Positions 49,471 through 56,830 of a DNA stretch of 64,000 nucleotides are shown piece after piece. The translations under genes and the position numbers were made by a program. A model generated the notes under the pieces. The model saw only the letters and a program-made list of their open reading frames with translations, did no database searches and was not told where the DNA came from. The DNA comes from Azospirillum sp. Its GTDB lineage: Bacteria > Pseudomonadota > Alphaproteobacteria > Azospirillales > Azospirillaceae. Position 1 is the first letter of the stretch; each line of letters opens with the position of its first letter. Location of the stretch: the NCBI GenBank assembly GCA_027486405.1, contig JAIXPD010000025.1, positions 1 through 64,000 of the forward strand. The letters are read 5' to 3'.

Positions 49471-50643
49471 TCAGGCCGCCGCCTTGTCGGCCATGAAGCC
49501 GACGAAGCGGTCGAACAGATAATGGCTGTCCTGCGGGCCGGGCGAGGCTTCCGGGTGGTACTGCACCGAGAAGACCGGCTTGCCGGTCAGGCGGATGCCC
49601 TCGTTGCTGCCGTCGAACAGGCTGACATGAGTGACTTCGGCGTCGGCGGGCAGCGATTCCGGTAGAACGACGAAGCCGTGGTTCTGGCTGGTGATCTCAA
49701 CCCGGCCCGAGGCCAAATCCTTGACCGGGTGGTTGGCCCCGCGATGGCCCAGCGGCATCTTGGCGGTCTTGGCCCCCAGCGCCAGCGACAGCATTTGGTG
49801 GCCCAGGCAAATGCCGAAGATCGGCAGGCCGGTGGCCAGCAGCGCCTGGATGGTCGGCACGGCGTAGACGCCGGTGGCGGCGGGGTCGCCGGGGCCGTTC
49901 GACAGGAACACGCCGTCGGGCTTGTGACGCAGCACGTCGTCGGCGCTGGCGGTCGCCGGGACCACCGTCACCTTGCAGCCAGCGGCGGCGAGGCAGCGCA
50001 GGATGTTGCGCTTGGCCCCGTAATCGATGGCGACGACGTGGAATTTCGGATCCGTCTGGGTGGCGTAGCCGCCGGAGATGCTCCAGGCCGCCTCGTCCCA
50101 GCCATAGGTCTGGCGGCAGGACACGTCCTTGGCCAAATCCATGCCCTCCAGGCCGGGCCAGTTTTTGGCCTTGGCGACCAGCGCGTCGAGGTCGAACACC
50201 CCGTCCGGCGCGTGGGCGACGACGCCGTTGGGCGCGCCCTGGTCGCGGATGCGGCGGGTCAGGCGGCGGGTGTCGATGCCGCTCAGGCCGATCAGGTTGT
50301 TTTTCTTCAACCAGCCGTCCAGATGGTCGTTGGCGCGCCAGTTCGACGGGTCGGTGATGTCGGCGCGCAGGATCAGGCCCCGCGCCGCCGGAGTCACCGT
50401 CTCGATGTCTTCGGCGTTGGTGCCGGTGTTGCCGATGTGCGGGAAGGTGAAGGTGATGATCTGCCCGGCGTAGCTGGGGTCGGTCAGGATTTCCTGATAA
50501 CCGGTCATCGAGGTGTTGAAGCACACCTCGCCCACCGAATCCCCGACGGCCCCGATGCCTCGGCCACGGAACACGGTGCCGTCAGCCAGAACCAGCACGC
50601 CGGTGTGAACGGCCTTGTCGGAGGGGGGAGAGGCGAGAGTCAT
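49471..50643 (-). CDS. carA: Carbamoyl-phosphate synthase small subunit
   Basis: A 390-residue glutaminase subunit. The start MTLASPPSDKAVHTGVLVLADG leads into GEVCFNTSMTGYQEILTDPSYAGQI, and the class I glutamine amidotransferase domain has VVAIDYGAKRNILRCLAAAGC, FLSNGPGDPAA, the nucleophile Cys in PIFGICLGHQMLSLALGAKT, and FSVQYHPEASPGPQDSHYLF (His-x-Glu). With CarB it makes carbamoyl phosphate for PyrB and Arg synthesis. carB is not in the window. It is divergent from yqeY. Confidence 0.96.
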   Translation of the reverse strand: MTLASPPSDKAVHTGVLVLADGTVFRGRGIGAVGDSVGEVCFNTSMTGYQEILTDPSYAGQIITFTFPHIGNTGTNAEDIETVTPAARGLILRADITDPSNWRANDHLDGWLKKNNLIGLSGIDTRRLTRRIRDQGAPNGVVAHAPDGVFDLDALVAKAKNWPGLEGMDLAKDVSCRQTYGWDEAAWSISGGYATQTDPKFHVVAIDYGAKRNILRCLAAAGCKVTVVPATASADDVLRHKPDGVFLSNGPGDPAATGVYAVPTIQALLATGLPIFGICLGHQMLSLALGAKTAKMPLGHRGANHPVKDLASGRVEITSQNHGFVVLPESLPADAEVTHVSLFDGSNEGIRLTGKPVFSVQYHPEASPGPQDSHYLFDRFVGFMADKAAA

Positions 50644-51086
50644 TCCGTTGGACCTTCCAAAAACCGCGACCGTCGACGGATCGACCAAAACGGATCGACC
50701 AGATGGGGCGGGCGGAACGGCGACGGTCTGGCGTCCCACCGGGCGCGCGCGCAGACCCGCTCGCACCCCATCCCCGCCAAACAGTCGGGCGGTGATGGGA
50801 TCGAGTGGGCGGGTCAGGGCAAGCCGGACATCGTATAGGACGAATGGCCGACCGATTTCCAGCAATAGCTTTGCAGGGCGGCGTTGCGGTTGTGCTTTCC
50901 CCCGCAAATCTGTGAACCTGGCCAGTCGCCCGACCCAGCCAATCGGCAGGCGGGAGTCGCGCATGGGCGGCCGCCGCACTATATAAGGCGTGACCTTTGA
51001 TGGGCGATTGCCGATAGTCGCCCGCCGCCGATGGCCCGCCGCTGATGGCCCCAGGTGCCGTCGGCCAGACGATGAGGAACAGGAAC
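50644..51086. other. Intergenic region between carA and yqeY
   Basis: The 443-base gap between divergent carA and yqeY has no gene I can support. It should hold both promoters. CTATATAA at about 50978-50985 could be a -10 for yqeY. A short direct repeat GGATCGACCA occurs at about 50677-50700. Confidence 0.4.
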
Positions 51087-51545
51087 ATGCTGCGCACCCG
51101 GTTGAACGATGCCTTGAAGGAGTCCATGCGCGCCAAGGACGCGCGCGCCGTCTCCACCCTCCGCATGGTCCTGGCGGGCCTGAAGGACCGGGACATCGCC
51201 GCCCGCACGCGCGGCGTCACCGACGGCATCGACGATGGCGAGGTCATGTCGATGCTGCAAACCCTCATCAAGCAGCGCAACGAATCGGCGACGATGTACG
51301 ATCAGGGCGGCCGCCCCGAACTCGCCCAGCAGGAGCGGGAGGAGATCGCCGTCATCGAACGCTTCCTGCCCAAGCAATTGTCGGAGGAGGAGGTCAACGC
51401 CGCCATCGCCGCCATCGTGGCGGAGTTGGGGGCCACCTCGATCAAGGACATGGGCAAGGTGATGGCGGAGTTGAAGACCCGGCACGCGGGCGAGATGGAT
51501 TTCGCCAAGGCCGGGCCGCTGGTCAAGCAACGTCTGTCGGCGTGA
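51087..51545 (+). CDS. GatB/YqeY domain protein
   Basis: A 152-residue YqeY-type protein: MLRTRLNDALKESMRAKDARAVSTLRMVLAGLKDRDIA, VMSMLQTLIKQRNESATMY, AVIERFLPKQLSEEEV and IKDMGKVMAELKTRHAGEMDF. It is homologous to the tRNA-binding tail of GatB; the function is unknown. ATG 51087 follows GAGGAACAGG; ATG 51072 is possible too. It sits upstream of dnaG, as in the usual yqeY-dnaG-rpoD cluster. Confidence 0.9.
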   Translation: MLRTRLNDALKESMRAKDARAVSTLRMVLAGLKDRDIAARTRGVTDGIDDGEVMSMLQTLIKQRNESATMYDQGGRPELAQQEREEIAVIERFLPKQLSEEEVNAAIAAIVAELGATSIKDMGKVMAELKTRHAGEMDFAKAGPLVKQRLSA

Positions 51546-51656
51546 TGTGAGACCGCCCGTTGCCGGGAGGTTCCGCGCACCGGGTCGCCGCCGCCGCTGA
51601 TGCGGCGCGCGGCGATCCGCGTTACGCTGCCCCCGCATGATCCGGTGATGTGACCC

Positions 51657-54503
51657 ATGGCCTTCCCCCCCCAATTCCTGGAAGAGCTTCGCAACCGGCT
51701 GGCCCTGTCGGACGTGGTGTCCAAACGGCTGCGCCTGATTCGCGCCGGTCGGGAGTTCAAGGCCCCGTGCCCCTTCCACAATGAAAAATCCCCCTCCTTC
51801 TACGTCAACGACCAGAAGGGGTTCTTCCATTGTCTGGCGGCGGAAACCCGTGTGCTGCTGCGCGACGGGGAACGGGCGATTGCCGATTTGGCCGGAACGA
51901 CGCAAACGGTGCTGACACGCGGCGGTGTCTGGGTTCCGGCGGAGTTCCAGTCCTATGGCGTCCAAAAACTTCACCGCATCACGCTGACGCGCAACGGCCA
52001 GACGAAAATTCTTCACGCCACCGCCGGGCATCGCTGGTTTGTGCGTGGGGCGCAAGGCGATGTGCTGACCACCGCGTTGCGGCCGGGGCATCGACTTGAG
52101 GCGGTTCTTCCCGAAGCGCGTCAGGATTGGACCCTGGATCCCGATGGTGTTGCCCACGGCGTGGTGTTTGGCGACGGATCGGTCGATAAGGGCGGTTACG
52201 GTCACGTTCACCTGCATGGCGACAAGGACCGCGTGCTGGCGGAATGGTTTCCCAACCAATCGCCGCAGCCCCGCCTGACGGAGACTGGAAAACCCTATCT
52301 GCGGATTTATGGCGGAAAATCCTTCGGCCACATGAAGGCTGTTCCATCTCTGGACAGCGATGACTCCTATCTGTTGGGATTCTTGGCTGGATACATCGCT
52401 GCCGATGGTCATGTGGCCAAAGATGGAACGGTGATGCTGCACAGCGCCAACCGGGCGCATCTGGAATGGGTGCGCACCGCCGCCTTGCGACTGGGCATCG
52501 GCACCTATGGCATCACGATGGCGACGCGCCAAGGTTTGGCGGCGGAGATGCGGGACATTTTCCGCGTCCATTTTGTGCCGTCCACGCTGCACCCGGCCCT
52601 GTTTTTGGGCGAAACCGCGCGCCAGCGGTTCGAAGCCGCCGACAAATCCTTTGGACGGCTGCGTTGGGTGGTGGAGTCGGTTGAGGAGACGGAGCGGGAG
52701 GAAGAGGTCTTTTGCGCCAGCGTGCCGGGTGAACACGCCTTTGCGTTGGAAGACAACATCCTCACCGGAAACTGCTTTGGTTGCGGGGCGCACGGCGACG
52801 TCATCGGCTTTGTCATGCGCCACGACAACCTCGCCTTTCCCGAGGCGGTGGAGCATCTGGCGGGTGAGGCCGGGTTGCCGGTTCCGCGCCCGACGGAGGA
52901 GGACCGGCACCATTACGAACGCCGCAAGACCCTGCATGATCTGGTCGAGCAGGCGGCGCGCTGGTTCGAACAGCAATTGCAGAGCGGGGCCGGGCGGGCC
53001 GGGTTGGAGTATCTGCGGCGGCGTGGGTTGGATGGCGAGGCGCTGGCGCGCTTCCGGCTGGGCTTCGCCCCCGGCGATTCCGGCGCGTTGCGCCAGCATC
53101 TGCTGCGGCTGAAGTTCGACGAGGAGGACATGGTCACGGCGGGGCTGCTGAAGCGGCCCGACGATGGCCGCACCGCCTACAGCTTCTTCCGCAACCGCGT
53201 GATGTTCCCCGTCACCGACCGGCGCGGGCAGGTCGTCGCCTTTGGCGGGCGCATTCTGGAGGGCGACGGGCCGAAATACGTCAACACGCCCGACACGCCG
53301 CTGTTCCACAAGGGAACGCTGCTCTATGGCCTGTCGCGCGCCCGGCAGGCGGCGGCGGATGGCAAGCCGGTGATCGTCGCCGAAGGCTATATGGACGTCA
53401 TCGCCCTGGTGCGCGCCGGGTTCGAGGGCGCGGTGGCCCCGCTGGGCACAGCCTTGACCGAAACCCAGGTGCAGGAGCTGTGGAAGCTGATCCCGGCGTC
53501 GGAAAAGATCCCCCACCTCTGTTTTGACGGCGACAACGCCGGGCGGCGCGCGGCGTGGCGGGCGGTGGAGCGCATTCTGCCCCATCTGGCCCCCGGCCAA
53601 TCGGCCCGCGTCGTCTTCATGCCGGAGGGTGAGGACCCCGACAGCCTGATCCGCGCCCATGGGCCAAAGGCGATGACCGGGCTGTTGGAGCAGGCGATTC
53701 CGCTCTCCGACGCGCTGTGGCGGATGGAGACGGAGGGGCGTCCCACCGACACGCCGGAAGCCAAGGCGGCGGTCAAGGCGGCGCTGGAGGCGCGCGTGGC
53801 CACCATCGCCGACCGCGACGTTCAGGGCTTTTACCGCACCGAAATGCGCCGCCGGGTGGACGAGGCCTTTGCTCCACCCGCGCGCGACCGGGGCGGGCGC
53901 GGTCCCTGGGTTCCGGGCCGCCGTCCGGGCGAACCGCCGCGCCGCCATGTGCCGGGCACGCCGGGGCGCTTGACCGCCAAGCCGATCGGGCAGGGGCGGG
54001 CCAGCGTGGCCCGGCTGGGGGCGGTGCGCGAACGGATTCTGCTTGCCACCCTCATCAATCACCCGGAACTGTTCGGCGAGGTCGGGGAATCGCTGGGTCT
54101 GTTGCCGTTGGGCGACCCTGAGATGGAAAAATTGCGCTGGGCGGTGCAGGAATGCCTGTCGGACGACCGCAACCGCGACTCGGGACTTGACGCGGCTGCC
54201 CTTTGTCGCCACTTGTCTTCCGCTGGTCAGGAGGAGCTGGTCAGCGCGTTGCTGAGTGAATCGACCTACGTTCACGCCGCCTTCGCCCGCCCGGACGCCT
54301 CGACCGACGAGGCGCGGAAGGGCTGGTGGCCGACGTGGCAGCATCTGCTTCACCGGCGGATGCTCGACGATCTCAGGGAGGCCAAGGCGGCTCTGACCCG
54401 TGACAACAGCGAGGCCAACCTCGCGCGGGTCGTGGCGCTTCAACAGGAGGTCATCAAGTCCGCGATGGGAATGACGGATGGCGATGATTCGGACGATCTC
54501 TGA
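51657..54503 (+). CDS. dnaG: DNA primase DnaG with in-frame intein
   Basis: A 948-residue precursor; residues 59-372 are an intein (next entry), leaving a normal 634-residue primase. The CHC2-type zinc finger is split: Cys38-x2-His41 is in the first extein, and after splicing Cys373 and Cys376 (CFGCGAHGDVIGFVM) complete it. The primase core follows (RMFPVTD-like FRNRVMFPVTDRRGQVVAFGGRIL, KYVNTPDTPLFHKG), then Toprim VIVAEGYMDVIALVRAGFEGAVAPLGTA and LCFDGDNAGRRAAWRA, and a DnaB-interacting C-terminal region. It makes replication primers. If the intein does not splice, the zinc finger is broken. Confidence 0.95.
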   Translation: MAFPPQFLEELRNRLALSDVVSKRLRLIRAGREFKAPCPFHNEKSPSFYVNDQKGFFHCLAAETRVLLRDGERAIADLAGTTQTVLTRGGVWVPAEFQSYGVQKLHRITLTRNGQTKILHATAGHRWFVRGAQGDVLTTALRPGHRLEAVLPEARQDWTLDPDGVAHGVVFGDGSVDKGGYGHVHLHGDKDRVLAEWFPNQSPQPRLTETGKPYLRIYGGKSFGHMKAVPSLDSDDSYLLGFLAGYIAADGHVAKDGTVMLHSANRAHLEWVRTAALRLGIGTYGITMATRQGLAAEMRDIFRVHFVPSTLHPALFLGETARQRFEAADKSFGRLRWVVESVEETEREEEVFCASVPGEHAFALEDNILTGNCFGCGAHGDVIGFVMRHDNLAFPEAVEHLAGEAGLPVPRPTEEDRHHYERRKTLHDLVEQAARWFEQQLQSGAGRAGLEYLRRRGLDGEALARFRLGFAPGDSGALRQHLLRLKFDEEDMVTAGLLKRPDDGRTAYSFFRNRVMFPVTDRRGQVVAFGGRILEGDGPKYVNTPDTPLFHKGTLLYGLSRARQAAADGKPVIVAEGYMDVIALVRAGFEGAVAPLGTALTETQVQELWKLIPASEKIPHLCFDGDNAGRRAAWRAVERILPHLAPGQSARVVFMPEGEDPDSLIRAHGPKAMTGLLEQAIPLSDALWRMETEGRPTDTPEAKAAVKAALEARVATIADRDVQGFYRTEMRRRVDEAFAPPARDRGGRGPWVPGRRPGEPPRRHVPGTPGRLTAKPIGQGRASVARLGAVRERILLATLINHPELFGEVGESLGLLPLGDPEMEKLRWAVQECLSDDRNRDSGLDAAALCRHLSSAGQEELVSALLSESTYVHAAFARPDASTDEARKGWWPTWQHLLHRRMLDDLREAKAALTRDNSEANLARVVALQQEVIKSAMGMTDGDDSDDL
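51831..52772 (+). mobile_element. Intein in DnaG with LAGLIDADG-type endonuclease motifs
   Basis: A 314-residue intein. Block A is CLAAETRVLLRDGERAIADL with Cys1; block B is ILHATAGHRWFV (T122-x2-H125 of the precursor); the endonuclease-type motifs are VAHGVVFGDGS (about 166-175) and LLGFLAGYIAADG (239-251); block F is VFCASVPGEHAFALEDNI; block G is LTGN followed by extein Cys+1. The terminal pair is Gly-Asn instead of the usual His-Asn. The flanks FFH and CFGCGAHGD rejoin to the standard primase sequence. The stretch is less GC-rich by eye than dnaG around it, consistent with acquisition by homing. Confidence 0.93.
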
Positions 54504-54639
54504 CCGCGCAGGCGGTCGTCGTCGGTTGGGCCGCAAGGCGGGTACAGAGCGTGTGGGTGGGGGCGGACGGTGCGGGCAACCGCGACCGGGCGTCCTCTTC
54601 GTATTTTTTTCACTGGGGTAATGCGGGGGCACCGATCGC

Positions 54640-56619
<1,980 letters not shown>

Positions 56620-56650
56620 CCGGACGGGCGCGGTTTTGCCGAGTTGGGAG

Positions 56651-56678
56651 CGGGGGCCTTGCGGCCCCCGTTTCCGTT
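56651..56678 (+). terminator. Terminator after rpoD
   Basis: CGGGGGCC and GGCCCCCG form a hairpin with a TTGC loop, followed by TTTCCGTTT, about 30 bases after the rpoD stop. Confidence 0.8.
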
Positions 56679-56754
56679 TGGGGCCGTGGTTCGACCGTGC
56701 GAACGAAGGGTTGCAAAACGCCCCGGCTTTGTCGCAAAGTGCCGCTCCCTGGAT

Positions 56755-56830
56755 GGGCCTGTAGTTCAGTGGTTAGAACGCGCCGCTCATAACGGTGTTG
56801 TCGTCGGTTCAAATCCGGCCAGGCCTACCA
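56755..56830 (+). tRNA. tRNA-Ile (anticodon CAT, lysidine type)
   Basis: A 76-nt cloverleaf with encoded CCA. Acceptor GGGCCTG pairs with CAGGCCT (one G-U), the D-arm is GTTC/GAAC, the anticodon loop is CTCATAA, and the T-arm is GTCGG-TTCAAAT-CCGGC. The GGGCCTGTAG start and CTCATAA loop are those of tRNA-Ile2, not of elongator Met, so C34 is expected to be modified by TilS (encoded at 12680-14047). Confidence 0.85.

Follow-up and report, generated by a model that had tools for sequence, protein, structure and literature searches.

An intein with a mixed-class active site in the CHC2 zinc knuckle of an Azospirillum DNA primase

The DNA primase gene dnaG of an Azospirillum sp. (contig JAIXPD010000025.1, positions 1 to 64,000 of the forward strand; this whole 64,000-nucleotide stretch is called the window below) is interrupted by an insert that is almost certainly a full-length mobile LAGLIDADG intein, with the dnaG codons of the CHC2 zinc knuckle as its homing target. 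The insertion point lies in the zinc-binding site of DnaG, between His58 and Cys59, and Cys59 is both the third zinc ligand and the residue at the +1 nucleophile position. An initial annotation of the window had read an intein here, splitting the zinc finger between His58 and the third ligand with that very ligand as its Cys+1, and both the sequence and the predicted fold bear this out. The genome assembly (GCA_027486405.1, G000 in our set) comprises 5.49 Mb in 96 contigs and is 93.7% complete.

The interrupted primase gene and its dependence on splicing

Family scans identify the host protein as DnaG, with the CHC2 zinc ribbon, DNAG_N and Toprim domains all present. The insertion is in frame, leaves the exteins intact and has clean empty alleles in relatives. 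Within it, splicing blocks A, B, F and G follow one another in order, each of the two junctions has a nucleophile, and two LAGLIDADG homing endonuclease motifs carry Asp115 and Asp192 (Pfam LAGLIDADG_3, 35.4 bits); alignments and Pfam agree with the blocks and motifs that had been picked out by eye. The predicted model of the window intein contains a complete intein (Hint) fold together with an endonuclease fold.

The zinc domain of DnaG is needed for primase function, and for this reason the protein presumably has to be spliced to work. The genome has a single DNAG_N match, in the interrupted dnaG, and one match is likewise present in each of the seven genus members that carry the intein. Given this one match per intein-bearing genome (n = 7), primer synthesis very probably depends on splicing, as had been proposed at the outset. 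Six of these seven genomes have no additional CHC2 ribbon; the seventh, G021, has one, in a frame of 201 residues (G021:C2:141373-141510).

We propose that after translation the intein would excise itself, linking His58 with Cys59 and so rebuilding the zinc finger of the sole detected primase. Cys1 would attack the N-terminal junction, probably aided by the adjacent Cys295 (F:4), part of a Trp-Cys-Thr active site. Transfer of the acyl group to Cys59 (+1) would follow, then cyclisation of Asn314, leaving Cys59 free for zinc.

Table 1 Features of the interrupted dnaG gene in window coordinates (scan 2 and alignment A3 are described in the text)
Feature	Positions	Strand	Details	Basis
dnaG precursor gene	51657..54503	+	948 residues; exteins total 634 residues	family matches, translation
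N-extein	51657..51830	+	58 residues; zinc ligands Cys38 (51768-51770) and His41 (51777-51779)	ligand positions from CHC2 pattern, Pfam PF01807
Intein	51831..52772	+	314 residues; sole cysteines Cys1 and Cys295	same-site homologues
Block A	51831..51860	+	Cys1 as first residue	Cys1 invariant in 15 aligned same-site inteins
Block B core	52020..52037	+	TAGHRW: Thr64 (B:7), His67 (B:10), Trp69 (B:12)	invariant in 40-sequence alignment A3, window intein included
LAGLIDADG motif 1	52155..52178	+	HGVVFGDG, Asp115	alignment; predicted fold
LAGLIDADG motif 2	52368..52409	+	YLLGFLAGYIAADG, Asp192	Pfam LAGLIDADG_3 across intein residues 180-226
Block F	52707..52742	+	VFCASVPGEHAF; Cys295 = F:4 at 52713-52715	Cys at F:4 in 54 of 54 scan-2 relatives
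Block G	52758..52772	+	ILTGN; Thr312 (G:5), terminal Asn314	alignment, scan-2 relatives
C-extein	52773..54503	+	Cys+1 = third zinc ligand (52773-52775); fourth ligand Cys62 (52782-52784)	empty site in relatives

Upstream of dnaG lies a YqeY-like gene (51045-51545, +) and downstream an rpoD-like sigma factor gene (54640-56619, +), both named from their translations without a family search; a carA-like gene (49471-50979, -), also named from its translation, and a tRNA-Met (at 56755) complete the neighbourhood within 49471-56830. A 1264-codon open frame antisense to dnaG (50979-54773, -) is most likely a by-product of high G+C and no gene.

Inteins at the same site in bacteria, phages and a plasmid

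The best named matches to the intein are in Azospirillum griseum (95% identity) and Azospirillum sp. SYSU D00513 (80%); in DnaG these two records show the same frames as G031 and G028, two members of the genus. A protein search found the intein in 6 of 61 genomes (the window's own and relatives), and a profile search of the order found it in 8 of 82, namely 7 of 45 in the genus and one in the same family, where the match lies at the coordinates of the Skermanella plasmid described below. The site was read in 32 of the 45 genus dnaG loci and is uninterrupted, directly before CFGC, in 25 of them, so that the intein-free alleles whose presence the initial annotation had proposed to check do occur among close relatives. 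On a dnaG tree of these 32 loci, presence of the intein takes at least 6 changes, 5 of them forced by well-supported branches. GGT encodes Gly61 in 5 of the 7 alleles with the intein and in 5 of the 25 without it, a weak association (Fisher p 0.019; counted by eye, post hoc) that perhaps reflects co-conversion. Beyond the order, genomes were sampled from larger groups and a limited number of first-look candidates was scored per genome (at most 5 in the class, phylum and Nocardioides-phylum samples, at most 7 in the Nocardioides-order sample), and the resulting counts are all lower bounds: at least 3 of 385 genomes of the class carry the intein (the window's and two others, whose DnaG is interrupted at the same codon) and at least 1 of 398 of the phylum (the window's own).

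The same site is occupied in actinobacterial DnaG. In the order of Nocardioides caldifontis a homologue was found in at least 16 of 293 genomes; by their flanks all 16 copies sit in DnaG before CxxC, and 14 are full-length, one is cut by a contig start and one (L100) is a natural mini-intein, 154 residues long, in which the endonuclease is gone and Cys1, Trp, Cys F:4, Thr and Asn are kept. At the level of that phylum, at least 3 of 396 genomes match: N. caldifontis itself, one with a same-site DnaG intein (L191) and one with an intein in another protein (L192, below). L191 has both endonuclease aspartates replaced (GNG, AAAG) and the splicing residues kept, so that the site is found with an intact, a dead or a deleted endonuclease and also empty. 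Between N. caldifontis and the window the inteins are 51% identical and the exteins 33%, whereas two pairs of sister species differ more in the intein than in the exteins (95 versus 99% and 93 versus 97% identity). That the intein is closer than the exteins across phyla, yet evolves faster between sister species, speaks for horizontal transfer. In the same sister pairs the intein dN/dS values are 0.031/0.380 and 0.037/0.468, and this large excess of synonymous over non-synonymous change indicates purifying selection on the intein. A related intein outside primases (L192, genome G1251) lies in a deaminase-like protein, directly before IAIHAEAN.

Phage primases are interrupted at the same position, and the proposed search for DnaG inteins there recovered homologues in both distant bacteria and viruses. 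The closest relative on a virus contig (L015, 58% identical) sits in a primase at the same knuckle, as does L016, and in both the CHC2 ribbon scores above cut-off. Six further virus proteins (L017, L131, L133, L136, L147 and L159) have the intein before CxxC and match primase PHROG families; the ribbon of L017 is under cut-off, and Pfam found no CHC2 ribbon in the other five. At least 8 distinct primase-like hosts thus occur among the 124 virus loci read, 10 virus proteins having been family-scanned. On plasmid pSR-4 of Skermanella rosea (L002:449-5911) the intein lies in a CHC2-like knuckle in the C-terminal part of an annotated MobF relaxase. Across 25 copies, the 24 bases round the insertion site agree with the window at 15-23 positions in 15 other chromosomal copies, at 18 in the plasmid, at 14-16 in L015-L017 and at 12-16 in five other primases; a conserved knuckle is plausible as the shared target. 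The endonuclease would cut intein-free dnaG alleles and the intein would be copied in by repair, and the likely carriers between lineages are phages and plasmids that have this target in their own primases.

These relationships were examined in a quick intein tree (SH-aLRT support only) of 94 rows: the distinct loci of scan 2, which used endonuclease-motif patterns, the remaining L018-L035, six other loci of scan 1 and chosen genome copies. One group (SH-aLRT 92) unites the alphaproteobacterial and plasmid copies with two virus copies, and the actinobacterial ones stand apart from it (99); L016 is the partner of the plasmid copy (98), L015 is placed within the alphaproteobacterial set (96), and L017 stands outside both groups.

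Inteins of the same family also occur in further virus-contig proteins (L145, L146, L162, L188, L052 and L068), where the +1 Cys opens a short Cys-rich motif near the end of the protein, for example CIGC, CLGC, CWGC or CGGFC. In the virus-contig relatives L037, L045, L060, L063, L067 and L072 a Gln immediately precedes the +1 Cys (KQ before C, YQ before C, GQ before C), and the intein may end in Gln, not Asn.

Alternative readings of the chemistry and of the insert

The active site combines features of two intein classes. Cys1 supplies the Cys, Ser or Thr at A:1 that characterizes class 1 sequences, and beside Cys1 and Cys+1 stands the triplet Trp69 (B:12), Cys295 (F:4) and Thr312 (G:5), which the initial annotation had not noted. 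This triplet, without a required nucleophile at position 1, marks class 3 in the cited passages of PMC3196547, PMC5050341 and PMC5222942, and because Cys1 is present we do not file the window intein as class 3. How firmly the residues are kept was assessed on 125 loci (128 minus L020, L066, L075 and L076, which have odd or cut lengths, plus the window intein), representing 110 distinct ones, of which 54 were new in scan 2; residue counts are quoted from these 54, as scan 1 was biased for Trp69 by its GHRW pattern, and they come from the best 80 of 175 confirmed scan-2 loci, ranked by likeness to the window intein. Among the 54, Cys1 is present in 53, Thr B:7 in 53, Thr G:5 in 47, and His B:10, Trp B:12, Cys F:4 and the terminal Asn in all. 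In alignment A3 (40 sequences, 27-95% identical to the window intein) the Trp and Cys of the triplet are invariant and the Thr is kept in at least 90%. Over all inteins Asp is commonest at F:4 and Cys second (PMC4031507), so that the triplet alone proves nothing. Near-invariance of both Cys1 and Cys F:4 favours a role for each thiol; Cys1 may not be the sole initiating thiol, and splicing may depart from simple class 1 chemistry.

Plain class 1 splicing, in which Cys1 alone would initiate, Cys295 would be a proton relay replacing Asp F:4, and Trp69 and Thr312 would be incidental, has in our estimate an even chance of being right. It accords with the near-universal Cys1, with the standing of Cys at F:4 over all inteins, with a Cys+1, which is dominant outside class 3 (in the cited part of PMC5222942), with the possibility of Trp at B:12 in class 1 inteins (PMC7891396) and with Thr64 of TxxH, a residue generally missing in class 3 (in the cited part of PMC6195587). 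Against it, the joint presence of Trp and Cys F:4 in 54 of 54 relatives exceeds what a relay role alone would lead one to expect, but resemblance to the window intein had also entered the ranking of these loci; and L175, in a ribonucleotide-reductase-like host (judged by eye; phage relatives are so annotated), has Pro1 in place of Cys1 and keeps the triplet and Cys+1. A phmmer search of L175 against solved structures gave no match judged to be kin (best E 0.023, acetyl-CoA synthase).

Somewhat less probable is a class 3 or dual mechanism, in which Cys295 would attack the N-terminal junction directly or relay the acyl group from Cys1 to Cys59. The conservation of the triplet in both data sets and the Pro1 member L175 argue for it, but L175 sits on a long branch of the 94-row tree and its placement is unsure, Thr G:5 is missing in 7 of 54 relatives, and the near-invariance of Cys1 argues for its use. 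By definition, moreover, class 3 requires no Cys1, Thr1 or Ser1, and Ser+1 or Thr+1 is the rule with one exception known (both in the cited part of PMC5222942).

We regard as rather unlikely a joint reading in which a large phage-borne family uses both Cys1 and the triplet, is ancestral to class 3 and couples splicing to zinc in primases. Its three thiols would form a relay from Cys1 through Cys F:4 to Cys+1, class 3 would have arisen by loss of Cys1 from this living Cys1-bearing family (compare L175), and a half-built site (Cys38, His41 and Cys1 for Cys59) could hold zinc in the precursor and make splicing, and with it replication, dependent on zinc.

A zinc- or redox-gated switch, compatible with either chemistry, is similarly doubtful: the precursor would sense zinc or oxidation and delay primer synthesis. 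In the precursor, Cys1 takes the sequence position of Cys59 near Cys38 and His41, and a partial zinc site might hold it; the active-site thiols are Cys1, Cys295 and Cys59, with ligands Cys38 and His41 in the N-extein. As precedents for the zinc or redox sensitivity suggested in the initial annotation, the cited part of PMC7360933 reports zinc binding to the F:4 Cys of MsmDnaB1 together with inhibition of its splicing, and that of PMC6195587 reports that H2O2 ties the same Cys of mycobacterial DnaB into a disulfide. The scattered distribution and the intein-free close relatives show, however, that the genus can do without such a switch, and PMC4031507 found, as of 2014, nothing to show that conditional splicing has a physiological role.

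Several observations weigh against reading the insert as a mobile intein that spread between lineages. The splicing-domain profiles stay under cut-off (Pfam Intein_splicing 16.4 versus 35.8 bits; NCBIfam intein_Nterm 15.3 versus 24.5 bits), a cut-off being a model threshold and no defining property of inteins. The residue before the terminal Asn is Gly and the usual His is absent; for a different, phage intein with penultimate Gly, the cited part of PMC5050341 reports that a Gly-to-His mutant accumulated precursor. The G+C dip over the intein is modest, 5.4% of the window's 942-base chunks being equally low. In the pairs computed within the genus, the intein shows a higher dS than the extein, a contrast that taken alone gives no hint of recent spread, and the two parts also differ in codon bias. 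In the 94-row tree the same-site inteins are not one clade (3 changes, of which starred branches force only 1). With shuffled labels the genus dnaG tree takes a mean of 6.5 changes, about equal to the 6 observed, and a scattered distribution by itself does not tell repeated gain from repeated loss. An ordinary domain insertion or an assembly artefact, which the low profile scores would fit, has next to no probability: the predicted full intein fold and the clean empty alleles at the identical site reject the former, the presence of the insert in six additional genus genomes rejects the latter, and a mini-intein version exists.

Known systems and implications

Tori and Perler reportedly described, in 2011, three inteins that mix the Trp-Cys-Thr motif with Ser1 or Cys1, in mycobacteriophage Catera Gp206, Nocardioides sp. 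JS614 TOPRIM and Thermobifida fusca Tfu2914. The window intein is 34% identical over residues 1-214 to the intein of Thermobifida phage P318 (MK240575), whose host differs, being an annotated ribonucleoside-triphosphate reductase. Against LAGLIDADG inteins of the PI-PfuI (1dq3) and PI-SceI type, it is 16% identical to 1dq3, has 314 versus 454 residues and carries Cys F:4 and a Gly before the last Asn. The class 3 DnaB intein of Mycobacterium smegmatis (6bs8) has Ala1, Ser+1, a DxxH block B and no endonuclease (in the cited parts of PMC6195587 and PMC7360933), whereas the window intein has Cys1, Cys+1, TxxH and an endonuclease. A phmmer search of the window intein against solved structures likewise gave no match judged to be kin (best E 0.44); with profile A3, class 1 DnaE inteins came top and 6bs8 was not among the 30 matches listed, a ranking that is no test of kinship.

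The initial impression that inteins in DnaG are few is not supported: the same-site insertion recurs widely, and a table in PMC5874633 already names DnaG as a eubacterial intein host, in a passage that gives no site, class or organism. No description of the zinc-ligand insertion site in DnaG was found in the open-access literature searched, which is no proof of absence in print; there, intein with Nocardioides, and intein with primase, zinc and insertion site, gave no match, and the matches for intein with Azospirillum were judged unrelated from titles and abstract openings. A DnaG intein as such is already known, and what is unusual is the site, the clear trail of spread and the mixed-class active site.

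In these bacteria, the sole detected primase seems to work only once a self-splicing mobile element has excised itself, with one thiol serving both splicing and metal binding. Related inteins at the same zinc knuckle of alphaproteobacterial and actinobacterial dnaG, of phage primases and of a plasmid relaxase mark out clearly a route by which inteins may travel, and the mixed class 1/class 3 active site makes testable the proposed origin of class 3 through loss of the first nucleophile from a phage intein.
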